A DNA stretch of 56,942 nt from positions 1 through 56,942 of the forward strand of contig NZ_LXYR01000033.1 in assembly GCF_001650195.1 (NCBI RefSeq). The letters are read 5' to 3'. Under the pieces are notes generated by a model. The model had not been told where the DNA came from. It did no database searches and saw nothing but the letters and a program-made list of their open reading frames with translations. This stretch comes from Phormidesmis priestleyi BC1401 (GTDB lineage Bacteria; Cyanobacteriota; Cyanobacteriia; Leptolyngbyales; Leptolyngbyaceae). The translations under genes and the position numbers were made by a program. Of this stretch, positions 3,371 to 47,929 are shown one piece after another. Position 1 is the stretch's first letter; every line of letters starts with the position of its first letter.

Positions 3371-5350
3371 ATGATCGCACCCGCTTACAAACCTGTTCTG
3401 CCGCAATTTGAATTTGTCCGCGAGTGGGACGATCAATTTCTTGCCTTATTTCCCCATCGGGGAGACTACCTCTGGGCAGAACATCCAGAGCCGAAGAAAA
3501 GACCAGAGTGGAAGACTGAAAGCACTCACCTGCTCACAGATCGCATGATCCAAAAAGGTGAATACTTATACGGAGTGCGGTTTGGCAGCACGACGAAGTA
3601 TCTGCTCATTGACATCGATATCCGCAGTGCCTACCACCCCAACAGAGATTTACTGGCGATCGCCCGCCTTGTCGAGGCACTTGAGCCATTAGGGTTGGTT
3701 GAGTACGTTGGGGTCTCTAGCTCTGACAGCGAGGGGTTGCACCTATATTTCCCGTTTGAAGAAGTCGTCCTGTCTTGGGCAATCGCCTTAGTCGCTAAGA
3801 CCTTGCTAGAGAGTAAAGGCTTCAAACTGCGAGGGGGGCAGCTCGAAATCTTTCCCAATCCGAAGGGCTATTCTGACTTACCGATCAACTACAACGGGCA
3901 TCGACTACCCGCTCAACAGGGGTCGTATCTTCTAAACAAAGACTGGGCACCCGTCTTTACGTCTCAGCACGCATTCGTTCTAAACTGGCAGTTTGCGGCA
4001 CGAAGAAACCAGGTGTCTGCCCGTGAAGTGGAGCGCCTTGCCAAACTCGCACAGCGCAAAAACTACGGTAAGAAAATCAAAACGCGGGGTCGAAAGTATC
4101 TCAGTGATCTCAACAATGATATTGAGCCTGGATGGACAGGTTCAGGGCAAACCCAATTCCTGCTTGGAAAAATCGCAAATCGAGAACGGGTATTTCACCA
4201 TGCACTATTTGGCGGTAGTCCTCTAGAAAGTCAAGCATTGGCAGACCGAATAGTTGAAGTGGCTCAAGCTCTCCCTGGCTATGCTGAGTTTTGTGGGCAT
4301 CAACACGAGATTGGCAAGAAGGCAAAAGAGTGGGCGAGGTCAGCCGAGCAACGGTATTACCCGTATGGGTCTGATCAAAACCTGCTGGAGTCCCTGGAGA
4401 AACCACTAGAAGACAGAAAGCCAACCTGGAATGAGCAGCAATCCCAGGAAGCCCGCGATCGCATTAAACACGCGGTTGGTGATCTCTTAGAAAACTGCGC
4501 ATTACCTGCACAAGCCACAGCTCGACGGAGAGCGCTTAGAGATTACGGAATCGGGAATGTCACCTTGGATAAATATCGCAGCCTATGGCATCCCAAAAGC
4601 CTAGAATCCTCTCTAGAAAAGGAATACCACCCTGTTGAGGTAGATTGTGATAATTCTGAGAGCCTAGAATCCTTGCTAGATATGCAATCCCACCCCAAAC
4701 CCACCAATAAGCTTTATCACATTTCTGCTTCTGCACCCCCAGTGCAGGAAGCAGAAGAGATAACAATTCCAAGTGTTGGGGGGTGCGGGGGGTTTTCCAC
4801 AGGGGAGTCGGGTGAAGCGGATTCACATCTTGATTTCGCTTCAGAAGATCAACAAGCCACAGATTCTGAAGCCCCTTTGAGTGGACCTGCGTTCGTTTGG
4901 CAGATTTTGAACCAACTTGCTGTGAAAAGGCAGCAATCCAAACGAGATCGAATGATCGAATCGTCAATCCCGGATGAACATTACTTTGATAAGAAAAATG
5001 AGCAGTTTGAACTGCTTGATACGTCTCCACTGTTGATTCCACCCGCTGATGGGCATTCAAGCTCCGATGATTTACCCAATGCCTCTGTTGTCCCAGAGCG
5101 TGAATTGGATCTCAATGTGGAAAAATTCTTAACGGCATCTAATTCCGAAGTTGAAGATGTCGGAGATCTGATTGCGGGAATTCAGATTCAGGTGCAAAAA
5201 CTTGCTTGGTCACCCATTCAAACTAAAGCGTGGGTTGCAGAACATTTTGGAGGTAGAAGCCGGTGGCAACTAACTGGTGACGAATTAGTTTTGTTACTGC
5301 ATCAACTACAAAGTGCGGCTCGGACTTCTTTTGATGGTGAGACAAGTTAG
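3371..5350 (+). CDS. Primase-like plasmid replication protein (AEP fold)
   Basis: The 659-residue product has the three spaced signatures of an archaeo-eukaryotic-type primase in its first 180 residues: YLLIDIDIRSAYHP (metal-binding DxD), SDSEGLHLYFPF (catalytic histidine) and LEIFPNPKGY (third acidic residue). Such proteins start replication of many cyanobacterial plasmids by laying a primer at the origin. The middle is basic and helical. The C-terminal third (about residues 400-600) is low in complexity and acidic, which suggests a flexible linker, and includes an imperfect internal repeat of SLESSLEKEYHP and SLESLLDMQSHP. A ribosome site AGGAGG lies just upstream of the ATG. With parA/parB 0.8 kb downstream, it argues for a plasmid backbone. 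Exact family was not verified. Confidence 0.7.
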   Translation: MIAPAYKPVLPQFEFVREWDDQFLALFPHRGDYLWAEHPEPKKRPEWKTESTHLLTDRMIQKGEYLYGVRFGSTTKYLLIDIDIRSAYHPNRDLLAIARLVEALEPLGLVEYVGVSSSDSEGLHLYFPFEEVVLSWAIALVAKTLLESKGFKLRGGQLEIFPNPKGYSDLPINYNGHRLPAQQGSYLLNKDWAPVFTSQHAFVLNWQFAARRNQVSAREVERLAKLAQRKNYGKKIKTRGRKYLSDLNNDIEPGWTGSGQTQFLLGKIANRERVFHHALFGGSPLESQALADRIVEVAQALPGYAEFCGHQHEIGKKAKEWARSAEQRYYPYGSDQNLLESLEKPLEDRKPTWNEQQSQEARDRIKHAVGDLLENCALPAQATARRRALRDYGIGNVTLDKYRSLWHPKSLESSLEKEYHPVEVDCDNSESLESLLDMQSHPKPTNKLYHISASAPPVQEAEEITIPSVGGCGGFSTGESGEADSHLDFASEDQQATDSEAPLSGPAFVWQILNQLAVKRQQSKRDRMIESSIPDEHYFDKKNEQFELLDTSPLLIPPADGHSSSDDLPNASVVPERELDLNVEKFLTASNSEVEDVGDLIAGIQIQVQKLAWSPIQTKAWVAEHFGGRSRWQLTGDELVLLLHQLQSAARTSFDGETS

Positions 5351-5363
5351 GTTGATCTGAAAA

Positions 5364-5951
5364 CTACAGATGCTGAAGTTCTAGCAGTACAGCCGTGTAA
5401 TCTTCGTTAGTCAATTTGCTGCTGGGTTTTGCCGTAACTTCCTGAATAAATACCTTAGTCTTCCCAGATTTCCACTTTAGCCGTTTGGCATGACGGGCGA
5501 TCGCCTCGATCGCTAAATTGTGCGGGATAGAGTAGCTAACCATTGCTTCTCTGAGCAAGACTGGTTCTTCTATGAAATTCGTTAGGTCTGGGCGAAGGTA
5601 CCAATCTGCCTGAGTTTTGTCAAAAGCTGGGGGTGGTGCAGTGAAGTAAATTGCGTCTAGTTCGTTCTCAACTTGCAGCCAACCAATGGTTCTTGCCAGG
5701 AACAACCACTCCTCTTCATCCGCGTTGAGCGATCTAGCTTGATTTAGTTGGAGGCTACCTAAAGGGTTATATACGCCAGCTCGCCAAGCCAAAGCCTGTT
5801 TTTCAGCATTGACTCGCCAGTCTTCTTCCAGAGAGGTTTGAATTTCCGGTTGCACATCACATTGGCGCATATCAGGAGTCTGAACCTTCTGTTCTGAAGA
5901 CTTCTTAAAATTGCGGCGTTTTGATTGTGTGACACCAAATCCCCTTGACAT
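5364..5951 (-). CDS. Hypothetical protein between rep and parA
   Basis: I do not recognise this 195-residue protein. The N-terminus is basic (QSKRRNFKKSSEQK). The middle has NADEEEWLFLARTIGWLQ, and the C-terminus carries IEAIARHAKRLKWKSGKTKVFIQE, a basic amphipathic helix that could contact nucleic acid. It is convergent with the replication gene, 13 bases from its end, and divergent from parA. The location suggests a plasmid maintenance or copy-control role, but nothing in the sequence proves it. Confidence 0.5.
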   Translation of the reverse strand: MSRGFGVTQSKRRNFKKSSEQKVQTPDMRQCDVQPEIQTSLEEDWRVNAEKQALAWRAGVYNPLGSLQLNQARSLNADEEEWLFLARTIGWLQVENELDAIYFTAPPPAFDKTQADWYLRPDLTNFIEEPVLLREAMVSYSIPHNLAIEAIARHAKRLKWKSGKTKVFIQEVTAKPSSKLTNEDYTAVLLELQHL

Positions 5952-39444: not shown

Positions 39445-40881
39445 TTACATATAGTAACTGTAGCTAATCTGCGGCTCATCATCTCCAGGGCGAAGATATT
39501 TCATTATTTGCCCAACCTTACGAGAACAGGCTAGTGTAATCGGGTACTTCCCGTCAAATTGGGTGTTATTCCAATTCATTTTAGTAAGTCCCAGGATTTC
39601 CCTACAAATTACTCCAGCAGATTCATCAGCCTTAACGATACGAATATCAAGGGGTTGAGGAATGTATTTTCCTGTGTATGTCCTATAGTACTCAACAGAT
39701 CCACGTGTGTATAAAAGATGATTTTCCTCATCAAATTCAATGTGCATACCGCGATACACTGGATACTCACTGCCACGCAATAAGCGCAAATCGCTGTCAA
39801 GGATTGTGATGAAATCAACGCTGCGAACTCCTAATTCGTAAGCGGCAGCCTCAAAACCCTCTATCTCTTCTTCTGTATACCTTGAAGACTTGTGCAAAAC
39901 CAAGCGACTGGGAGAACTGTTCATGGCTATATCGTATTCATTGAGTGCTCGTTTAAGAAGGTTATAGGCTTGCTCCTCTTTAAGGTTGGGACGACGATCG
40001 TCTTTATTAAGATCAACTGGGGTTCCACGAAGAATAACGTTTTGACCCAATTCATCAAAAATTTGAGCCAAGCTGGTATTCAAAACGCTGCCATCACGAC
40101 TCCGGTAGAAGCTAATGCCTACGAAACAAACTTGTGGACGATTTATATTAGTAATTAGCTTCCAGGGTACAGTCTGGCTAGCTTTGTAATATAGTGCTGT
40201 ACAGAAGTTCCATGCCTTTGTGGCGTCATCTTGTTGTCCCTTAGCATTTGAATCAAGTGATATCTCACGGATGATTTGAATCGGTTTGCCAAGATGCATC
40301 GTTCTTGCCTTTAAAGCCCGTCGAAAGTTAACTTCTAGTTCATCTTCCTTTTGCTCTTCATCAGTTTCTTCAATAGACTCTGCTACATCAGGCAGTCCTG
40401 ATGAAAAAATCTTGTCATACAATTTTGTTGGAACAACACAAATGATGACATCGATGGTTCGGTTCTGTGCCAAGAACTTAGCAAGACGATAATACATTTC
40501 TACAGATGCTTCTACTCTTTCATTCCAAGTAGCGAGCTTCAAGATGCTGCTAATATCAGAATTAGAAAGCGAGCGTGTAATCTCCTCATCAATAACTAAC
40601 TGAGCTTTATACCCGTCATCTAAGTTGAACCCACAAAAAGGAACCCTTAGATTAGGTTGGCGGCTTTCTGGAGGCGCATCAATTCGATTAGCACAGCGAT
40701 CAATCCATGTGTAAAGTTTGGAAAGAGCATCGCTCGTTCCAATGGCACCTACAAAAATCCTTTCCCTTCGTATTTTCAACCTCGTGTCGTAAACATCATG
40801 AGTTGTGATGCCGGCTCTAGGACAGACATGGGAACCTTGACCGAAATCCAGTAATGGTTCTTGAATTTGGTGTAATTTCAT
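39445..40881 (-). CDS. Short prokaryotic Argonaute (MID-PIWI)
   Basis: The 478-residue protein reads as a short pAgo, with MID and PIWI domains but no PAZ or N domain. Typical blocks are TALYYKASQTVPWKL, CFVGISFYRSRDGSVLNTS, AQIFDELGQNVILRGTP, SRLVLHKSSRYTEEEIEGF and the C-terminus ISYSYYM. The first catalytic aspartate of PIWI is replaced (VGISFY), so slicing is not expected, as in other short pAgos. Such proteins use guide RNA to sense invading DNA and activate the partner effector. The partner gene (40884-42377) ends two bases before this start codon. Confidence 0.88.
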   Translation of the reverse strand: MKLHQIQEPLLDFGQGSHVCPRAGITTHDVYDTRLKIRRERIFVGAIGTSDALSKLYTWIDRCANRIDAPPESRQPNLRVPFCGFNLDDGYKAQLVIDEEITRSLSNSDISSILKLATWNERVEASVEMYYRLAKFLAQNRTIDVIICVVPTKLYDKIFSSGLPDVAESIEETDEEQKEDELEVNFRRALKARTMHLGKPIQIIREISLDSNAKGQQDDATKAWNFCTALYYKASQTVPWKLITNINRPQVCFVGISFYRSRDGSVLNTSLAQIFDELGQNVILRGTPVDLNKDDRRPNLKEEQAYNLLKRALNEYDIAMNSSPSRLVLHKSSRYTEEEIEGFEAAAYELGVRSVDFITILDSDLRLLRGSEYPVYRGMHIEFDEENHLLYTRGSVEYYRTYTGKYIPQPLDIRIVKADESAGVICREILGLTKMNWNNTQFDGKYPITLACSRKVGQIMKYLRPGDDEPQISYSYYM

Positions 40882-40883
40882 GT

Positions 40884-42377
40884 CTAAAGTAACAACTCCA
40901 TCTGCTCTGTGTTGTCGCTATCCTCATCGCTATTTGTTCTTACAGGCAGCCAATCTTTATCAATTAGGGCTGGTGCATTTTCAAAAGTTATGAGGTCGCC
41001 GAAGGACAGAAATGGATATCGCTCATATTTATGAAATAAGTCAGAAGATTTCTCTGTTTTAAGAAATGCAGTAATAAAACGTAAATGATTACATACGCTC
41101 TTATCGTTCTCTTTACGCTTTAACCAGTCAAGATTTTTTTTGGCAAAGAATGACTTTCGATAACCATCAAAACTAAAGAACCAATCTGGAACGATACTCA
41201 AATACCACTTATTCCCAAATCTTATATATCTCGTTCTAAATCCAAAGTGTTTACATGAGAGAATTTCATCTGGCTTGTTATTTTTCATAACCCGCTCATA
41301 AACTGTTCGATGATAAGTAGACCCTTTGTCGTACCATTCTTCCTTTCGCTCAGAGTTATTATCAACTTCAGTAAATATAAACAACTTCTCTTGGTGCTGC
41401 CAAACAACGTCAAGATGATAGAGCTTTTGCTGTAAACATCTACCAAGAAGTGACTTAAAAACGTTTTCGTAATTATTGTCTATCTCATAAAACTCTTGCG
41501 AATTTAGAGGCGTTACTGTTCCTAAATCAATGATTGCTGTTATGGGAAGATCTTGATCTCGTAAATCGTGAAATGTCACTACTTTTCCTTCATGGCACGT
41601 CCAGTCTACCCCAAATTTCATTCCAGACTGCTTCAAAGCAGCAGCAGCTATGTCTCTTGTCGATGCACTTCGTTTGAGCGGTCGGTTAGTATCTTTTGAG
41701 TTTTTGATAACCTGCTCACGGTTTACTGCCAAATCTGCAATATAAATCAGACTTGGAAACTGTAATCCTAGAAGATTTAGGTAAACTTTTTGAGTTTCTT
41801 GTGTGGTAGTCTCTTTGATTAGTGGAGTTGTTCCATTCTCAACTGCGAAAGAGATATCTTGGTTTCCAAAATTAGCTTCTAAAATGTTACGAATTCGCTG
41901 AAGCTGATCGATTTGGAAACTGGAAATTCGCTTAATAAGATCTCGATAGTCTAGAATATCCGTTTTCACGTTGAACTGAATTTTACCTTGAACAATTTTC
42001 TGAAAACCTTTTTCTGAGTAGCTTTTCTGTTTCTCTGTCAAAATATAGATTTGCACTCTATCAAAAGTGTTGAAAAGTTTATGCTCTACAAAGCCATGCA
42101 AGGTATGCTTGATTTTGTCACTACCTGGAGTGGCAGTAACCTGAATTGCAACTTTTGCAGTTTCATCGCCTAAGTCGATTGCAGGATAGTTCAACCCTTC
42201 AGAATCATTAAGATTTTTGAGATCTCGATACCCAAAAACCTCCTTAAATATAGGAATTAGAATGGTTTCAGAAATTCGGTTGATATCAGTTCTACTTATT
42301 GCGTTATGCCCCTTAACTTGCGTCACAAAAACAGAGAGTAATTCGATGATGCGGTTTTGATGGTCTTGTGATCGCAT
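40884..42377 (-). CDS. SMEK-like/APAZ effector partner of the short Argonaute
   Basis: The C-terminal ~300 of 497 residues are an APAZ domain, the Argonaute-binding part of short pAgo partners: FPSLIYIADLAVNREQVI, FGVDWTCHEGKVVTFHDL, PITAIIDLGTV and CLQQKLYHLDVVW. The N-terminal ~170 residues read as a SMEK-type domain: TDINRISETILIPIFKEV, NYPAIDLGDETAKVAIQVTA, FDRVQIYILTEKQKSY, DILDYRDLIKRI. SMEK domains are found on NACHT/STAND-like proteins and their activity is unproven; the D ... QVT pattern hints at a PD-(D/E)XK-related fold. It is the upstream gene of a two-gene operon and should be the toxic effector. Confidence 0.82.
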   Translation of the reverse strand: MRSQDHQNRIIELLSVFVTQVKGHNAISRTDINRISETILIPIFKEVFGYRDLKNLNDSEGLNYPAIDLGDETAKVAIQVTATPGSDKIKHTLHGFVEHKLFNTFDRVQIYILTEKQKSYSEKGFQKIVQGKIQFNVKTDILDYRDLIKRISSFQIDQLQRIRNILEANFGNQDISFAVENGTTPLIKETTTQETQKVYLNLLGLQFPSLIYIADLAVNREQVIKNSKDTNRPLKRSASTRDIAAAALKQSGMKFGVDWTCHEGKVVTFHDLRDQDLPITAIIDLGTVTPLNSQEFYEIDNNYENVFKSLLGRCLQQKLYHLDVVWQHQEKLFIFTEVDNNSERKEEWYDKGSTYHRTVYERVMKNNKPDEILSCKHFGFRTRYIRFGNKWYLSIVPDWFFSFDGYRKSFFAKKNLDWLKRKENDKSVCNHLRFITAFLKTEKSSDLFHKYERYPFLSFGDLITFENAPALIDKDWLPVRTNSDEDSDNTEQMELLL

Positions 42378-42543: not shown

Positions 42544-42729
42544 TTTAAACAATACTCCGGACATTTTTTTGAACGGTTCCACAAGGCTTTCAGAGTTTAT
42601 GGTTCAAGGATCGAGCTATTTTTTCAGAGTTAGCTCTGCCTCTGACTTGGAAAAAAAGATCTTGTCCACGGCAGAATAAGGGTTTGAGCCTTAAAATCTG
42701 CTCAAATTTTGTCCGGAGTATTGTTTAAA
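42544..42729. mobile_element. MITE-like element, 186 bp
   Basis: Perfect inverted ends TTTAAACAATACTCCGGACA face each other across 186 bases, with no gene inside. The end core CAATACTCCGGACA is the same as in the element at 39311. The right end lies at the 3-prime end of the RHH gene and supplies its stop codon. The two elements bracket the Argonaute operon. Confidence 0.8.
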
Positions 42730-43105
42730 AGTGGCACCCAATAGCACTTATAGGTGCTAATTTACCAGATATTGTTAGTCCAAGCAGCATCACCTGTCGA
42801 GGTCGAATGATTTGACCTGTAATCGCGCACTGCTCTTCTTGTTGAGCGATCGCCTTAAAGGTGGCTCGAATATCCGACATGGATAACCGTGGGGGATGAG
42901 AGGGCGATCGCTCATGTCTAGCCACGCGAGATTGTTCCCCATCAGGCGCTGGCTGCTGCCCCACAAACTGCCAAAGCACTTCCCGAATCAGGGTTTGATA
43001 CCCTTGTTCACCAGAAAGCTCCCGCAATCGCTCCTTCAGTTCGGGTTCCAGTCGGATACTCGTCACCTGCATTTCCGAAGTGCTACCCCGTTTGCGTGTA
43101 TCCAT
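42725..43105 (-). CDS. Ribbon-helix-helix protein upstream of the tRNA array
   Basis: The 126-residue protein opens with an RHH DNA-binding unit (EMQVTSIRLEPELKERLREL, then LIREVLWQFVGQQ). The C-terminal part (SMSDIRATFKAIAQQEEQCA ... RPRQVMLLGL) is of unknown function. Its last codons enter the inverted end of the MITE-like element, which provides the TAA stop, so the original C-terminus may have been longer. TGTAGTA/TACTACA boxes upstream of its start recur at the tRNA-array promoter, which makes it the prime candidate for an autorepressor that also controls the array. Confidence 0.7.
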   Translation of the reverse strand: MDTRKRGSTSEMQVTSIRLEPELKERLRELSGEQGYQTLIREVLWQFVGQQPAPDGEQSRVARHERSPSHPPRLSMSDIRATFKAIAQQEEQCAITGQIIRPRQVMLLGLTISGKLAPISAIGCHF

Positions 43106-43146
43106 AACCGGACATCCTAAATTTCAATCAAGGGTGGACAATCTAA

Positions 43147-43196
43147 TACTACAAGTGTAGTATATAAATATTTGGATTTGTATTACAAATACTACA
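43147..43196. promoter_or_regulatory. TACTACA/TGTAGTA operator region
   Basis: TACTACA (43147) and TGTAGTA (43156) form an inverted repeat two bases apart, and a further TACTACA lies at 43190. The AT-rich TATATAAATATTTG between them suits a promoter. It lies 42-91 bases upstream of the RHH start codon. Confidence 0.6.
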
Positions 43197-43203
43197 GCCT
43201 TCC

Positions 43204-43422
43204 ATGATACGCATCCTTCACTCCACCTTAAGCAGCGCCATGCAGTGCCGACCGCCTCACGGTCTAGGCAGAGCAGCGGCGCTGTTTGCGTTTGAGGGGA
43301 CGTATCGGTTTAGCGGCGGTAAATCCGTCAGCGAAGGCATTGATAGCAACATCGCCGGACGACTCAATCCGGATCAATTCACTAGCAGCGGGAGGTGCAG
43401 GGCAATCCTGACACCTACATAG
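43204..43422 (+). other. Possible leader or 72-codon ORF
   Basis: A 72-codon frame begins ATGATACGCATCC and is followed by a strong intrinsic terminator at 43444. I recognise no domain. It could be a small protein, a non-coding RNA or a leader of the HNH gene. Confidence 0.25.
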
Positions 43423-43443
43423 GGAAACCCATATCCACTTCCC

Positions 43444-43483
43444 AACCCCCGCTTCTGGTGCTCAGAGGCGGGGGTTATTTTTT
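43444..43483 (+). terminator. Intrinsic terminator upstream of HNH gene
   Basis: AACCCCCGC and GCGGGGGTT form a perfect 9-base GC-rich stem, followed by ATTTTTT. It ends a short plus-strand transcript or acts as an attenuator, since the HNH gene starts 13 bases later. Confidence 0.8.
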
Positions 43484-43496
43484 GAGGAGAAAACTG

Positions 43497-44027
43497 ATGC
43501 AGACCGAACAGCGACAGAAAATTCCAATACTCCAGAACCAGGTTGTGGTGTTCTCCAAGAACTACCTACCCCTGGCGCGAATCAACATTAAACGGGCGAT
43601 CGTGCTTTTGGTTACCGGGCAGGCAGAGACTCTGGAGTTCAGCAGCACCCAGCAATGGGAAGTACGCTCTCCCAGTGTCGTACTACAAATCCCAGATCAC
43701 ATCCGGTTGACCAGTGGCAATCCAGAGCGGCACTGGAAGCTTCCTCCAGTCAATCGTCGGGAAGTCTTCCGCCGCGATAACCACACCTGTCAGTACTGTG
43801 GCAGTACCAAGCACCTAACGCTGGATCACGTCATTCCCCGCTCAAAAGGCGGACTCCATACCTGGGACAACGTAGTGACCGCCTGCGGAAAGTGCAATTC
43901 ATGCAAAGGCGATCGCCTCCTACATGAAACCGGAATGGTACTCGAAACCAAACCCAAGGCACCGATGCATCCAGCGATCGCCTTCGCCGAGCAGTTTTGG
44001 AAAGACCAGCAGCCTGTTGACACCTGA
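43497..44027 (+). CDS. HNH endonuclease upstream of the tRNA array
   Basis: I place the start at 43497 (MQTEQRQKIPILQ), which has a GAGGAG ribosome site eight bases upstream; longer frames would cross the terminator. The 176-residue protein has the HNH core: HTCQYCGSTKHLTLDHVIPR, SKGGLHTWDNVVTACGKCN. The N-terminal half (VVVFSKNYLPLARINIKRAI) is the domain usual in cyanobacterial HNH proteins. It may be a mobile or restriction nuclease. The alr0857-like gene follows after 28 bases and probably shares its transcript. Confidence 0.88.
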   Translation: MQTEQRQKIPILQNQVVVFSKNYLPLARINIKRAIVLLVTGQAETLEFSSTQQWEVRSPSVVLQIPDHIRLTSGNPERHWKLPPVNRREVFRRDNHTCQYCGSTKHLTLDHVIPRSKGGLHTWDNVVTACGKCNSCKGDRLLHETGMVLETKPKAPMHPAIAFAEQFWKDQQPVDT

Positions 44028-44055
44028 CCTCAAGCCTAAAGAGGAGGCATGACCG

Positions 44056-44442
44056 ATGTTGAAGCTGAACTACACCGACGTTGGGCTGTACATGGAGCGG
44101 ACCATGACCAACCCCGAACTGTTGATTGCCCAGCAAGTGCTTCTGGCACTGCGGTTAGGGCGATCGTTCCATGTTGAACCCGGTTGTGCCTCCTTTCTGC
44201 TGCCTGCTGATATTCCTGAACTGAAAGTGCTGGAGATGGCACTACATCGGGAGTATGGCTCAGTAGTCACCCTCATTGCTGTAGATGAGGAGTTTGTCGA
44301 AGTCGGGCTGAGCGGAAGCTGGATTGCCGAGGACAAGGACGCTCACGAAGGGATGTTCTTGACGATGATGAGCGATCGCACTGAATTCCTGATTTACAAA
44401 CTGTGGCGGATGAGTGAAGCCCGCATTTCCTCCCTAGCGTAG
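44056..44442 (+). CDS. alr0857-family protein
   Basis: The 128-residue protein (MLKLNYTDVGLYMERTM, VLLALRLGRSFHVEPG, CASFLLPADIPELKVLEM, SDRTEFLIYKLWRM) resembles a conserved cyanobacterial family of unknown function that I know as alr0857-like. No catalytic motif is visible. It is the last protein gene before the tRNA array, 28 bases after the HNH gene. Confidence 0.6.
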   Translation: MLKLNYTDVGLYMERTMTNPELLIAQQVLLALRLGRSFHVEPGCASFLLPADIPELKVLEMALHREYGSVVTLIAVDEEFVEVGLSGSWIAEDKDAHEGMFLTMMSDRTEFLIYKLWRMSEARISSLA

Positions 44443-44513
44443 TGGGGAAACCCAGTAGGAGATGGCGATACGACCATTTCTTTCCCGATCGCCCTCTTGC
44501 CTAGAAAAAAAGT

Positions 44514-44598
44514 TGTAGTACGGGGTTGACAACTTGTAGCACGTTTGTAGTATAACTGTAGTATCAACACTACAACCTCTTACAAAGGCTCTGTAGTA
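44514..44598 (+). promoter_or_regulatory. tRNA-array promoter with TGTAGTA boxes
   Basis: TTGACA (44526) and TAGTAT (44549), 17 bases apart, form a good sigma-70-type promoter before the first tRNA. TGTAGTA boxes occur at 44514, 44546, 44557 and 44592, a variant TGTAGCA at 44535 and an inverted CACTACA at 44568. They cover the -35, spacer, -10 and the start region. The same box occurs at the RHH gene. Confidence 0.65.
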
Positions 44599-44634: not shown

Positions 44635-44711
44635 GGGGGTGTAGCTTAGTCCGGCTTAAAGCAGTCGCGCGCCCGTGCGAAAGATCGTGGGTTCAAATCC
44701 CATCTCCCCCG
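44635..44711 (+). tRNA. tRNA-like, anticodon unclear
   Basis: The acceptor stem GGGGGTG/CTCCCCC has one mismatch. D and T arms are present. The anticodon arm gives a six-base loop (CGCCCG) rather than seven, so the anticodon cannot be read with confidence. No CCA end is encoded. It may be degenerate. Confidence 0.6.
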
Positions 44712-44717
44712 CCTTGT

Positions 44718-44791
44718 AGCATCGTGGACGAATAGAGAAGTCGCCGTGCCTCTCAAGCATGGAGAAGCGGGTGCAACTCCCGTCGATGCTC
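44718..44791 (+). tRNA. trnE: tRNA-Glu (CTC)
   Basis: Seven-base acceptor stem AGCATCG/CGATGCT, anticodon loop CTCTCAA, T stem GCGGG/CCCGT. CCA is encoded. Confidence 0.9.
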
Positions 44792-44796
44792 CCAAT

Positions 44797-44891
44797 GAGG
44801 ATGTAGCTCAGATGGACAGAGTGCTTGTTTCCGAGACAAGTGGTCACAGGTACCGCTTCGCGGAAGCAAGCTACGATCCCTGTCATCCTCG
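44797..44891 (+). tRNA. trnR: tRNA-Arg (CCG) with insertion in the T loop
   Basis: Acceptor GAGGATG/CATCCTC and anticodon loop TTCCGAG are normal. The T loop, bases 44851-44878, is 28 bases long instead of seven because of an insertion with a GCTTCGCGGAAGC hairpin. Function is doubtful unless the insertion is tolerated or removed. Confidence 0.8.
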
Positions 44892-44896
44892 CTCGT

Positions 44897-44975
44897 GGGA
44901 ACGGATTGGCATCACTTGCTCCGAAACCAACAAACGGACGGTTGCAGGATTGGGGTTCAATTCCCCACGTTTCCA
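44897..44975 (+). tRNA. tRNA-like, anticodon unclear
   Basis: Acceptor GGGAACG/CGTTTCC (one G-T pair) and T arm TGGGG/CCCCA with encoded CCA are sound. The anticodon arm is irregular, with AACC/GGTT around an 11-base stretch, so no anticodon can be assigned. Confidence 0.6.
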
Positions 44976-44981
44976 CCAAAT

Positions 44982-45054
44982 CTCCAGGTCGCCAAGTGGG
45001 AAGGCGTTGGTCTGCAAAACCGACTACTCGTGGGTTCGATTCCCACCCTGGAGT
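44982..45054 (+). tRNA. trnC: tRNA-Cys (GCA)
   Basis: Acceptor CTCCAGG/CCTGGAG, anticodon loop CTGCAAA, T arm GTGGG/CCCAC. CCA is encoded. Confidence 0.92.
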
Positions 45055-45062
45055 CCAATCAT

Positions 45063-45134
45063 TGCAGCGTAGCTTAATGGCAAAGCCCCAAGCTCATAAC
45101 TTGGTCATTGCGGGTTCAACTCCCGCCGCTGCGA
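45063..45134 (+). tRNA. trnM: tRNA-Met-type (CAT)
   Basis: Acceptor TGCAGCG/CGCTGCG, anticodon loop CTCATAA with stem CCAAG/CTTGG. A CAT anticodon could also be Ile2; the sequence does not settle this. Confidence 0.88.
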
Positions 45135-45139
45135 CCCAT

Positions 45140-45210
45140 GCACAGATGGTGTAACGGCAACATCGCGGTCTCCAAAACCGTTGTTCGAGGTTCAAATCCT
45201 CGTCTGTGCG
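45140..45210 (+). tRNA. trnW: tRNA-Trp (CCA)
   Basis: Acceptor GCACAGA/TCTGTGC, anticodon loop CTCCAAA, T arm CGAGG/CCTCG. No CCA end is encoded. Confidence 0.92.
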
Positions 45211-45232
45211 TTGTCGTGCCCTAATCGAAGAA

Positions 45233-45307
<75 letters not shown>

Positions 45308-45337
45308 AACAGCTTTTTCAACTTGCACGGCATACCT

Positions 45338-45411
45338 GGTGCAGAAGCGAAGTGGTCGAGCGGCACGTCTTTCAAGCGTGTGATTAACGGGTTCAAGTCC
45401 CGTCTGCACTG
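45338..45411 (+). tRNA. trnE: tRNA-Glu (TTC)
   Basis: Acceptor GGTGCAG/CTGCACT, anticodon loop CTTTCAA, T arm ACGGG/CCCGT. CCA is encoded. Confidence 0.9.
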
Positions 45412-45447
45412 CCAAACTTGCTCATCCTTGAGAGCAAAAACAAACAT

Positions 45448-45529
45448 AGGTCGGCTCGCCTATCAGCGTGGGCAACTGTCTGTAAAACAGCCGCTTCTTG
45501 CGTTGCAGGTGCGACTCCTGCCCGACCTA
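45448..45529 (+). tRNA. trnY: tRNA-Tyr (GTA)
   Basis: Acceptor AGGTCGG/CCGACCT, anticodon loop CTGTAAA and a long variable arm as expected for bacterial tyrosine tRNA. CCA is encoded. Confidence 0.92.
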
Positions 45530-45537
45530 CCAATCAT

Positions 45538-45618
45538 GGAGAGTAAATCGATCAGGAGATCGACGCTGTTTGCTAAACAGATGGATGAACAATTGTGGTT
45601 CGAGTCCACTGCTCTCCG
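45538..45618 (+). tRNA. trnS: tRNA-Ser (GCT)
   Basis: Acceptor GGAGAGT/GCTCTCC, anticodon loop TTGCTAA and a long variable arm. Confidence 0.9.
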
Positions 45619-45623
45619 CCTCT

Positions 45624-45698
45624 GAGAACGTGGTGTAACTGGATGAACACATCGGTCTACGAAACCGAAGAGTGAAGGTTCGATTCCTTCCGTTCTCG
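45624..45698 (+). tRNA. trnR: tRNA-Arg (ACG)
   Basis: Acceptor GAGAACG/CGTTCTC, anticodon loop CTACGAA on TCGGT/ACCGA. CCA is encoded. Confidence 0.92.
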
Positions 45699-45706
45699 CC
45701 AATGAT

Positions 45707-45789
45707 GGAGGGCACCGCTGAATGGTCGGCAACTGGTCTTGAAAACCAGGGTAGTCCTTGGGCTAGGGGTTCGATTCCTCTATCCTCCG
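45707..45789 (+). tRNA. trnS: tRNA-Ser (TGA)
   Basis: Acceptor GGAGGGC/ATCCTCC with one mismatch, anticodon loop CTTGAAA, long variable arm. Confidence 0.88.
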
Positions 45790-45794
45790 CTTGT

Positions 45795-45867
45795 GGGAAG
45801 TTGGTGAAGCTGGTGCTCACGTGCCGCTGAAGACGGCGAGAAGGCAGTTCGATCCTGTCACTTCCCA
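45795..45867 (+). tRNA. trnF: tRNA-Phe (GAA)
   Basis: Acceptor GGGAAGT/ACTTCCC, anticodon loop CTGAAGA on TGCCG/CGGCG. Confidence 0.9.
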
Positions 45868-45872
45868 CTCAT

Positions 45873-45944
45873 TGCCCCATAGCTCAATGGCGGAGCGGGC
45901 GGCTGTTAACCGCACGGTTGCAAGTTCGACTCTTGCTGGGGCAG
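45873..45944 (+). tRNA. trnN: tRNA-Asn (GTT)
   Basis: Acceptor TGCCCCA/TGGGGCA, anticodon loop CTGTTAA. CCA is encoded. Confidence 0.92.
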
Positions 45945-45952
45945 CCATTCAT

Positions 45953-46026
45953 TGCCGAGTGGACGACATGGAAAGTCGCTGTGACTCTGAATCACGGAGA
46001 TGCTGGTTCGACCCCAGCCTCGGCAT
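45953..46026 (+). tRNA. trnQ: tRNA-Gln (CTG)
   Basis: Acceptor TGCCGAG/CTCGGCA, anticodon loop CTCTGAA on GTGA/TCAC. CCA is encoded. Confidence 0.9.
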
Positions 46027-46035
46027 CCAATTCAA

Positions 46036-46108
46036 TGCCCTGTGGTGTAACTGGCAACATCCCGCTCTTTGAAAGCGAAGATTCCAGGTTCAAACCCTGG
46101 CGGGGCAG
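46036..46108 (+). tRNA. trnQ: tRNA-Gln (TTG)
   Basis: Acceptor TGCCCTG/CGGGGCA with a T-G pair, anticodon loop CTTTGAA on CGCT/AGCG. Confidence 0.9.
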
Positions 46109-46109
46109 T

Positions 46110-46156
46110 TGGGAGGTAAACAGTCGCCTGGGTCAATCCTCTGTATTCCTCCCATT
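46110..46156 (+). pseudogene. Truncated tRNA remnant
   Basis: TGGGAGG and CCTCCCA could pair as an acceptor stem, but only about 33 bases lie between them, with no complete anticodon arm. It reads as a tRNA that lost its centre by deletion. Confidence 0.5.
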
Positions 46157-46160
46157 TTTC

Positions 46161-46235
46161 ACTCCTGTAGCCCAACCGGAAGAGGCGGCTGTCTCAAAAA
46201 CAGTCAACGCGCGGGTTCAAATCCCGCCAGGAGTA
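46161..46235 (+). tRNA. trnL: tRNA-Leu anticodon (CAA), class I body
   Basis: Acceptor ACTCCTG/CAGGAGT, anticodon loop CTCAAAA, six-base variable loop. CCA is encoded. It is the second CAA gene of the array. Confidence 0.85.
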
Positions 46236-46240
46236 CCAAT

Positions 46241-46317
<77 letters not shown>

Positions 46318-46325
46318 CCAACTAT

Positions 46326-46401
46326 CGGGATGTAGCTCAGCTTGGTTGAGAGTTACCGCTTTGGAAGCGGAAGGTCGTAGGTTCAAATCCTACCATCCCG
46401 A
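46326..46401 (+). tRNA. trnP: tRNA-Pro (TGG)
   Basis: Acceptor CGGGATG/CATCCCG, anticodon loop TTTGGAA. CCA is encoded. Confidence 0.92.
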
Positions 46402-46407
46402 CCATTT

Positions 46408-46481
46408 GCCCTTGTGACGGAACTAGCAGACGTGCTGGCTTCAGAGACCAGATTTTGTGGGTTCGACTCCCACCAAGGGTA
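46408..46481 (+). tRNA. trnL: tRNA-Leu anticodon (CAG), class I body
   Basis: Acceptor GCCCTTG/CAAGGGT, anticodon loop TTCAGAG, short variable loop although the D arm (CTAGCAGACG) is leucine-like. Confidence 0.82.
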
Positions 46482-46486
46482 CTGAT

Positions 46487-46559
46487 GCTCCTGTGGCGGA
46501 AGGGAAGACGCTCTAGACCGAGGATCTAGGTTTTGTGGGTTCGATTCCCACCGGGAGTA
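46487..46559 (+). tRNA. trnL: tRNA-Leu anticodon (GAG), class I body
   Basis: Acceptor GCTCCTG/CGGGAGT, anticodon stem CTAGA/TCTAG, loop CCGAGGA with C instead of U at position 33. CCA is encoded. Confidence 0.82.
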
Positions 46560-46563
46560 CCAA

Positions 46564-46638
46564 GCACCGAAGGCGGAAGTGGTGGACGCGCACGCCCGAT
46601 AAGCGTGTTATTAGCAGGTTCAACTCCTGCTCGGTGTA
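46564..46638 (+). tRNA. trnI: tRNA-Ile (GAT)
   Basis: Acceptor GCACCGA/TCGGTGT, anticodon stem CACGC/GCGTG, loop CCGATAA with C33. CCA is encoded. Confidence 0.85.
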
Positions 46639-46646
46639 CCAAACAT

Positions 46647-46718
46647 CTGAGTGTGGTGCAGTGGGAGCACGTCGGTTCGGGGAACCGGAGGTCGTAGGTT
46701 CAATCCCTACCACTCAGA
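46647..46718 (+). tRNA. trnP: tRNA-Pro (GGG)
   Basis: Acceptor CTGAGTG/CACTCAG, anticodon loop TCGGGGA with C33. CCA is encoded. Confidence 0.85.
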
Positions 46719-46724
46719 CCATTC

Positions 46725-46797
46725 GGGTCGTTAGCTCAACGGTTAGAGTGGCTGCCTTTTAAGCAGACAGATCAGAGTTCAAATCTCTGACGACCCA
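46725..46797 (+). tRNA. trnK: tRNA-Lys (TTT)
   Basis: Acceptor GGGTCGT/ACGACCC, anticodon loop CTTTTAA. CCA is encoded. Confidence 0.93.
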
Positions 46798-46807
46798 CCA
46801 ACGCTTC

Positions 46808-46880
46808 GGGTTGTTAGCTCAGTTGGCAGAGCAGCCGCCTCTTAAGCGGAAGTGCATAGGTTCAAACCCTATACAACCCA
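46808..46880 (+). tRNA. trnK: tRNA-Lys (CTT)
   Basis: Acceptor GGGTTGT/ACAACCC, anticodon loop CTCTTAA. CCA is encoded. It resembles the preceding lysine gene and probably arose by duplication. Confidence 0.92.
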
Positions 46881-46886
46881 CCAAAT

Positions 46887-46960
46887 GCCCCTGTGACGCA
46901 ATTGGCAGACGTGTCCGGCTTAAAACTGGAATCTTGCGAGTTCGAGTCTCGCCGGGGGTA
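46887..46960 (+). tRNA. trnL: tRNA-Leu anticodon (TAA), class I body
   Basis: Acceptor GCCCCTG/CGGGGGT, anticodon loop CTTAAAA on TCCGG/CTGGA, short variable loop. Confidence 0.83.
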
Positions 46961-46961
46961 T

Positions 46962-47034
46962 AGCGGGGATAGAGCAAGAGCGGCTCGGCAGTCTCATAAG
47001 CTGCGATCGGTGAGTGCAACTCTCACCCCCGCGT
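46962..47034 (+). tRNA. trnM: tRNA-Met-type (CAT)
   Basis: Acceptor AGCGGGG/CCCCGCG with a mismatch at the first pair, anticodon loop CTCATAA on GCAGT/GCTGC. CCA is encoded. It is the second CAT gene of the array. Confidence 0.82.
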
Positions 47035-47040
47035 CCAAAT

Positions 47041-47112
47041 GCAGGTGTGATGTAACAGGAAACATGAGGCTCTCGTACAGCCTTCATGCAGGTTCAACTC
47101 CTGTCGCCTGCT
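47041..47112 (+). tRNA. trnT: tRNA-Thr (CGT)
   Basis: Acceptor GCAGGTG/CGCCTGC, anticodon loop CTCGTAC on AGGCT/AGCCT. CCA is encoded. Confidence 0.9.
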
Positions 47113-47118
47113 CCAGAT

Positions 47119-47190
47119 GCAGACGTGGTGTAACTGGCAACACAGGAGCTTGGTACGCTCCCAATATGGGTTCAACCCCCATCGTCTAAT
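47119..47190 (+). tRNA. trnT: tRNA-Thr (GGT), acceptor stem damaged
   Basis: Anticodon loop TTGGTAC on GGAGC/GCTCC is sound, but the acceptor GCAGACG/CGTCTAA has lost its first two pairs. Probably decaying. Confidence 0.75.
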
Positions 47191-47200
47191 CCTTTGATAT

Positions 47201-47273
47201 CGGAGCATAGTCCGATTGGGAAGGCTCCTGTCTTACAAACAGGCTCATGTAGGTTCGATTCCTACTGCTCCGA
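47201..47273 (+). tRNA. trnV: tRNA-Val (TAC)
   Basis: Acceptor CGGAGCA/TGCTCCG, anticodon loop CTTACAA on CCTGT/ACAGG. Confidence 0.92.
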
Positions 47274-47276
47274 TTT

Positions 47277-47349
47277 GCCGTCATAGTTCAACTGGCAGAA
47301 CGGCCGTCTTGTAAGCGGTTGGTTGCGGGTTCAATTCCTGCTGGCGGCT
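47277..47349 (+). tRNA. trnT: tRNA-Thr (TGT)
   Basis: Acceptor GCCGTCA/TGGCGGC, anticodon loop CTTGTAA on GCCGT/GCGGT. Confidence 0.9.
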
Positions 47350-47355
47350 CTGTAA

Positions 47356-47427
47356 GCGATCGCGGTGCAGCGGCAAGCACCCCTGGCTTCCAACCAGGAG
47401 ACACGAGTTCGAGTCTCGTTGATCGCT
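47356..47427 (+). tRNA. trnG: tRNA-Gly (TCC)
   Basis: Acceptor GCGATCG/TGATCGC, anticodon loop CTTCCAA on CCTGG/CCAGG. CCA is encoded. The acceptor contains the HIP1-like GCGATCGC octamer. Confidence 0.92.
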
Positions 47428-47434
47428 CCAACTC

Positions 47435-47506
47435 GCGATCGTGATGTAGCGGCGAGCATCTGAGTGCGCCACACTCAGCGCATGGGTTCGAGTCCCATCG
47501 ATCGCT
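47435..47506 (+). tRNA. trnG: tRNA-Gly (GCC)
   Basis: Acceptor GCGATCG/CGATCGC, anticodon stem TGAGT/ACTCA, loop GCGCCAC with C33. Confidence 0.85.
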
Positions 47507-47511
47507 CTTAT

Positions 47512-47583
47512 AGTCCTGTAGCTCAACGGTAGAGCAAGCGCTTTACAAGCGAGAGGTTGTAGGTTCGAGTCCTATCAGGACTA
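47512..47583 (+). tRNA. trnV: tRNA-Val (TAC), second copy
   Basis: Acceptor AGTCCTG/CAGGACT, anticodon loop TTTACAA on an anticodon stem with only three good pairs. CCA is encoded. Confidence 0.82.
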
Positions 47584-47591
47584 CCAATCAT

Positions 47592-47664
47592 GGGAGTGTC
47601 GCCTAATGGATAAGGCAACCGTCTTCTAAACGGTTCCATGCAGGTTCAAATCCTGCCATTCCTG
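47592..47664 (+). tRNA. trnR: tRNA-Arg (TCT)
   Basis: Acceptor GGGAGTG/CATTCCT, anticodon loop CTTCTAA on ACCGT/ACGGT. Confidence 0.9.
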
Positions 47665-47668
47665 CCTT

Positions 47669-47740
47669 GGGGTCGTAGCTCAATGGCGGAGCAAGTTCCT
47701 TGCAAGAACGAGGTTATCGGTTCAAGTCCGATCGACTCCA
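47669..47740 (+). tRNA. trnA: tRNA-Ala (TGC)
   Basis: Acceptor GGGGTCG/CGACTCC, anticodon loop CTTGCAA on GTTC/GAAC. Confidence 0.92.
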
Positions 47741-47746
47741 CTGATG

Positions 47747-47821
47747 GTGCCTAAAGTCGAAATGGTTGAGACACCAGCCTGTGAAGCTGGGCATTAACAG
47801 GTTCGAGTCCCGTTAGGCACC
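47747..47821 (+). tRNA. trnH: tRNA-His (GTG)
   Basis: Acceptor GTGCCTA/TAGGCAC, anticodon loop CTGTGAA on CCAGC/GCTGG. The base before the stem is G, as needed for histidine identity. It is the last tRNA of the array. Confidence 0.9.
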
Positions 47822-47929
47822 CTTAAGATGATGAACGTTACGCCTCACCCACTGCTAGTAGCTTCTCGGACCCAACTAATAACTTCTAAACGGTCGGTGT
47901 GCAGGCGGATTGTCAGACCTCAACTGAAA

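Follow-up and report, generated by a model that had tools for sequence, protein, structure and literature searches.

Organization of the tRNA array module

The window, by which we mean the whole 56,942-nt stretch of P. priestleyi DNA that was analysed, contains a module in the order trcR, small ORF, HNH, alr0857 family gene and tRNA array. On the minus strand at 42725..43105 lies a gene for a 126-residue TrcR homologue of the RHH repressor type, assigned by homology and placed in a separate clade. Divergent from it on the plus strand is an asr0855-like small ORF of 72 residues (43204..43422), recognized by frame conservation and homologues, and between the two lie a palindromic predicted operator (43146..43163), where the -10 elements of the two predicted promoters also lie, and a predicted TrcR box on the minus strand directly 5′ of the small ORF (43190..43196; motif match and module alignment). 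These are followed on the plus strand by a terminator-like hairpin that separates the small ORF from HNH (43444..43476; 15 pairs and a T-run), an HNH endonuclease gene of the alr0856/all8564 type (43497..44027; Pfam HNH_5, 6e-15) with a further predicted TrcR box on its minus strand (43681..43687; motif conservation), an alr0857 family gene (44056..44442; NCBIfam NF045647, 3e-42) and, by motif matches, a predicted array operator with boxes over TTGACA/TAGTAT (44514..44598).

The tRNA array itself (44635..47822, plus strand) comprises 33 tRNAs within 3.2 kb according to ARAGORN, preceded by a single predicted promoter. In Rfam, 29 array tRNAs exceed the gathering score, and the scan matched tRNAs alone and no other RNA family; a count of 38 tRNAs, as given in a preliminary description of this DNA, was not reproduced by either program.

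Among the aligned modules, from which L086 was left out, the small ORF keeps its start codon and reading frame. As its length changes in steps of 3, we favour a protein product over a pure RNA leader, with the qualification that differences per codon position (0.126/0.089/0.178 in the family, 0.141/0.207/0.225 on plasmids) give no clear coding constraint. The hairpin at 43444-43476 is common to the 28 aligned modules, and the ribosome site of HNH lies directly behind its T-run, so that it could be an attenuator. Adjoining the module at 39445-42377 are a SMEK-domain protein (40884-42377) and then a 478-residue protein, possibly a defence pair.

Homology of the RHH protein to TrcR

In Anabaena PCC 7120, TrcR (all0854) binds and represses the promoter of its own gene as well as the trn operon of 26 tRNAs, where its footprint lies at TGTAGTAT over the -10 TAGTAT, and deletion of trcR raises asr0855, alr0856 (HNH) and alr0857 by 9.2-, 7.2- and 8.5-fold, as described in PMC10272220 (2023). 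The array-linked protein of P. priestleyi is a homologue of this repressor by sequence: it matches the A2 profile with an E value of 8.5e-52 over positions 1-107 of 109, is 54% identical to a second TrcR of the same genome, and contains both the conserved strand MxVTSIRLE and the C-terminal block. The strand residues VTSIR are invariant across 43 aligned homologues, array-linked and chromosomal alike. RHH models of Pfam match the array-linked protein below the cut-off only, and an AlphaFold monomer built with 43 homologues is weak (pLDDT 66.7), with two helices and a low-confidence strand; a Foldseek search of the PDB with this weak model gave no significant match.

A MITE-like element lies 3′ of trcR (about 42550..42723); the genome contains 34 matches to it, of which 20, the window copy included, are near full length. 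TTTAAA is present on both of its flanks, and the trcR stop codon falls in the flanking sequence. When the flanks are joined by removing the MITE and one TTTAAA copy, the same 126 residues and the same stop are read. The preliminary description had taken the 3′ end of the RHH gene to be lost or altered here, and repression perhaps to be relaxed as a result; since the element lies behind the stop, with the frame unchanged and the conserved C-terminal block present, damage by the MITE is rejected and a relaxation from that cause is unsupported.

TGTAGTA boxes over the trcR and array promoters

The window holds 13 exact copies of TGTAGTA against 2.42 expected (sd 1.54; maximum of 8 in 100 shuffles), and 8 of the 13 fall within 43147-44598; these boxes are genuine and much more frequent than chance would predict. 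In the shared trcR and divergent promoter region they form a near-perfect palindrome, ATACTACA-AG-TGTAGTAT, at 43146-43163, with a third box at 43190 that is an exact TACTACA at the same place in 27 of the 28 aligned modules, L084 being the exception. The palindrome reads ATACTACAAGTGTAGTAT on the plus strand and, on the minus strand, ATACTACACTTGTAGTAT, which differs little from the published motif ATACTACACTTGTATTAC of TrcR; the 5.55 Mb genome has just two sites for the pattern TACTACANNTGTANTA, one 5′ of each TrcR gene. The operator at the promoter of the array-linked trcR thus matches the published motif.

The array promoter consists of TTGACA (44526), a spacer of 16 nt and TAGTAT (ending at 44553). 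It carries four exact boxes at 44514, 44546, 44557 and 44592 and two variants, TGTAGCA at 44535 and an inverted CACTACA at 44568, the boxes at 44535, 44546, 44557 and 44568 being linked by 11-bp steps. Two boxes at such a step, written as TGTAGTAN{3,5}TGTAGTA, have the array promoter as their sole site in the genome. Both earlier readings, that boxes stand in the RHH promoter and that six or more, counting variants and one in inverted orientation, cover the -35, the -10 and the start region of the array promoter, are borne out; the additional box at 43681 within HNH had escaped notice.

Phased boxes at other cyanobacterial arrays

We examined 52 distinct array promoters, taking the largest tRNA run per locus and boxes within 800 nt, L128 and L108 having been dropped because they share their promoters with L004 and L063, respectively. 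At least one direct exact box is present in 49 of the 52 and a phased pair in 43, compared with 4.5% for any box and 0 of 10,400 for phased pairs in shuffled promoters. By group, any box and a phased pair are found at 12/12 and 11/12 arrays with array-linked TrcR, at 13/13 and 12/13 plasmid arrays, and at 24/27 and 20/27 arrays of the chromosomal group. The nine arrays that fail to show a phased exact pair (L121, L085, L017, L039, L049, L063, L174, L212 and L214) mostly have few tRNAs, L017 and L049 excepted; three of them (L017, L063, L214) have no direct box at all, and in L121 and L085 the paired boxes are separated by 42 and 44 bp.

Same-direction pairs less than 60 bp apart number 78 once one identical box region is dropped, and every one of them is phased, at 10-12 (30 pairs), 20-23 (17), 32-35 (17) or 42-46 bp (14), which places the paired boxes of array promoters, as judged from their spacing, on one face of the helix. 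Genomes with TrcR have paired boxes in 46 of 102 cases, those without it in 7 of 284 (p 1e-23), and the corresponding counts for a reversed control pattern are 10 of 102 and 25 of 284 (p 0.84); the p-values for this association are too small because the genomes are related and not independent. TrcR genomes are also larger, and one of five hand-picked genomes of the same class, of at least 4.5 Mb and without TrcR, has paired boxes. In stretches of 10-12 kb each, three plasmid tRNA arrays from other phyla, those of Paenibacillus, Mycolicibacterium and Acidiphilium, have no box. On the plasmid of Mycolicibacterium sp. TY66 (L253), an HNH endonuclease gene lies within the tRNA array at 5286-5780.

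Two TrcR lineages and their linkage to arrays

A profile search finds TrcR in 102 of 386 genomes of the phylum and in 41 of 42 of the own family, Leptolyngbyaceae. More than one match is seen in own-family genomes (G000, G060, G185) and in G357, where the matches are one gene in two pieces, or broken. The second TrcR of P. priestleyi, on contig C17 (L135), adjoins an alr0857-like gene, with neither HNH nor an array within the 20 kb examined. The two kinds of protein differ in the linker from the helix end to the conserved Cys, which by pattern (4 of 198 rows unparsed, two of these array-linked) measures 47-56 residues in the long-linker rows, all from Leptolyngbyaceae, versus 30-33 residues in 182 other rows and 40 in a single further row; the array-linked linker is 15-24 residues longer than that of the usual type. 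In a tree of 59 rows, built on few columns, the 12 array-linked rows are split from the rest by a branch whose support is 100/99, and the stem branch of their clade is long (0.53). From linker and tree, the array-linked TrcR is a separate, longer-linker clade, seen in the own family only.

This lineage, or a fragment of it, is carried by 16 distinct loci, two of which (L126, L130) end at a contig border. Of the 14 with enough sequence, 12 have 22-34 tRNAs alongside, and the remaining two, L098 and L120, lack an array but retain the small ORF and part of HNH. Seven of the 12 array-linked copies look complete, so the gene is not always intact beside its array: L127 is cut by a stop, L084, L121 and L131 are fragments, and the start codon of L123 is ambiguous. 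The usual chromosomal TrcR adjoins an array at 13 of 100 loci taken from the phylum sample, always in the order trcR, HNH, alr0857-like gene, array. L010 and L138, with 4 tRNAs about 10 kb away, did not count as array loci.

At the 13 Nostocales plasmid arrays (L085-L097) the likeness to our module extends to the asr0855-like ORF, HNH, phased boxes and array, but neither TrcR (0/13) nor an alr0857-like gene lies within about 6 kb. P. priestleyi itself has a second array on contig C31 (G000:C31, L255:9800-13123), with 14 tRNAs behind a shortened array-type HNH that has the same inner box, and with a TTGACA/TAGTAT promoter overlain by TGTATTA, TGTAGTA and TGTAATA in 11-bp steps. No TrcR lies beside it, so control in trans would be needed at least once in this genome.

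A conserved box within the HNH gene

The HNH codons GTA CTA CAA at 43681 spell TACTACA. This inner box is found in 25 of 26 distinct array-type HNH genes (L127 has GTG) and in 0 of 88 other HNH genes, and no 7-mer among the 480 windows is better conserved (26 of 27 rows); its neighbours and TGGGAAG, the latter containing the single-codon Trp, are conserved to an equal degree. Ten further HNH genes (L255-L264), outside the 26/88 count, have the box at the conserved place in five cases (L255, L256, L257, L260, L262) and elsewhere in the gene in L263; those without it (L258, L259, L261, L264) show no array in the stretch examined. The simplest reading of this pattern is a putative operator. That the box is kept by protein sequence or shared descent instead appears rather unlikely to us: VLQ is indeed conserved at the protein level in array-type genes, chromosomal HNH genes carrying other residues there, yet the codons are degenerate and GTA CTA CAA is fixed in 26 of 27 rows, against 36% agreement at third positions of shared V/A/G/P/T codons between family modules and plasmid HNH genes. 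The lac operator O2 offers a parallel, as it too is located within a coding gene that lies downstream of its main operator; the likeness is one of position, the operator role of the HNH inner box being putative.

A model for silencing of the array

We propose that this is a long array of the Anabaena kind, silenced by a module-encoded repressor of the TrcR type two genes upstream and relieved by disturbed translation, a reading that we hold to be about 85% probable on the grounds of sequence and of analogy with Anabaena. TrcR dimers would bind TGTAGTA half-sites spaced by 10-11 bp across the -35, the -10 and the start of the array promoter, as well as the palindrome over the shared trcR and asr0855-like promoters, and would thereby keep the array, the small ORF, HNH, the alr0857-like gene and trcR itself silent. 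When translation is disturbed the level of TrcR would fall and the silenced genes would switch on, by analogy with Anabaena, where antibiotics that stop elongation lower TrcR protein. Silence of the array and its induction by translational stress are published for Anabaena only (PMC10272220). Repression by the RHH protein of both the array and its own gene, as the preliminary description proposed, is a very probable prediction in view of the TrcR homology, the match to the operator motif and the boxes over the -10 hexamers. The novelty then claimed for an array-silencing repressor does not stand, repression of the trn array and of itself by TrcR having appeared in 2023 (PMC10272220). The likeness between the two systems includes a self-regulated RHH-type repressor, the box TGTAGTAT over the -10 TAGTAT and the asr0855/alr0856/alr0857 neighbours, whose order is unchanged; they differ in that the Anabaena trcR is chromosomal and trn lies on the delta plasmid, whereas P. 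priestleyi has a second TrcR of another clade in the array module (PMC10272220 for Anabaena).

Which of the two copies acts on the array is the main point on which alternatives must be weighed. The array-linked copy is inferred to bind the same boxes, and either or both copies may control the array. Silencing by the chromosomal TrcR of C17 alone, with the array-linked copy a redundant cargo in the course of loss, would agree with the missing TrcR within about 6 kb of the plasmid arrays and at the second array of this genome, and with the three fragments, one stop and one ambiguous start among the 12 array-linked copies; we nonetheless regard it as doubtful, since the window copy is intact, with strand residues unaltered and the genome's best palindrome as its operator, and since 7 of the 12 copies look complete. 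The array-linked copy might also modulate the chromosomal TrcR, for example through mixed dimers, rather than act as a repressor in its own right; its DNA-contact strand is the same, its linker longer by the residues given above and its stem branch long, but it retains a full operator of its own and we think this improbable. The description of the repressor as dedicated is right in part: a separate TrcR clade does neighbour arrays, but this genome also contains another TrcR, as well as a second array that has none next to it.

It could be argued that the boxes reflect promoter composition or chance phase, as TAGTAT is itself a -10 hexamer and one box per promoter could arise by promoter drift. 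The lack of any phased pair in the shuffled promoters, an association with TrcR that the reversed pattern does not share and the TrcR footprints in Anabaena (PMC10272220) speak against this, and we find it scarcely credible. In sum, the known mechanism is very probably present here, and what is new is the array-borne TrcR lineage together with the phasing and the inner box. None of these three was described in the papers searched, which were mostly open-access; linkage of arrays to trcR goes unmentioned in the sections of PMC10272220 consulted, where "adjacent" occurs 0 times, and no other paper on TrcR and arrays turned up in a search that was thin on subscription literature.

TrcR control, found in one Anabaena strain, would then be the common rule for cyanobacterial tRNA arrays and would account for the entry of a mobile array into a cell that it leaves undisturbed, with an operator design, half-sites phased at 10.5 bp and an operator inside a gene, that is sharp and testable. 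More speculatively, arrays in Leptolyngbyaceae may travel self-silencing, with their own TrcR lineage and the HNH operator, a loop joining both promoters and opening when translation fails; we put this forward tentatively and consider it unlikely. The inner box lies about 490 bp from the operator of trcR and the small ORF and 865 bp from the array promoter. If such an arrangement is true, the own TrcR lineage would keep the array switched off in whichever new host it reached. A protein resembling the C-terminal half of TrcR also occurs in Nodularia phages (9 records), and the one phage stretch examined (L251) lacks any tRNA but carries isolated boxes at 3729 and 3808.
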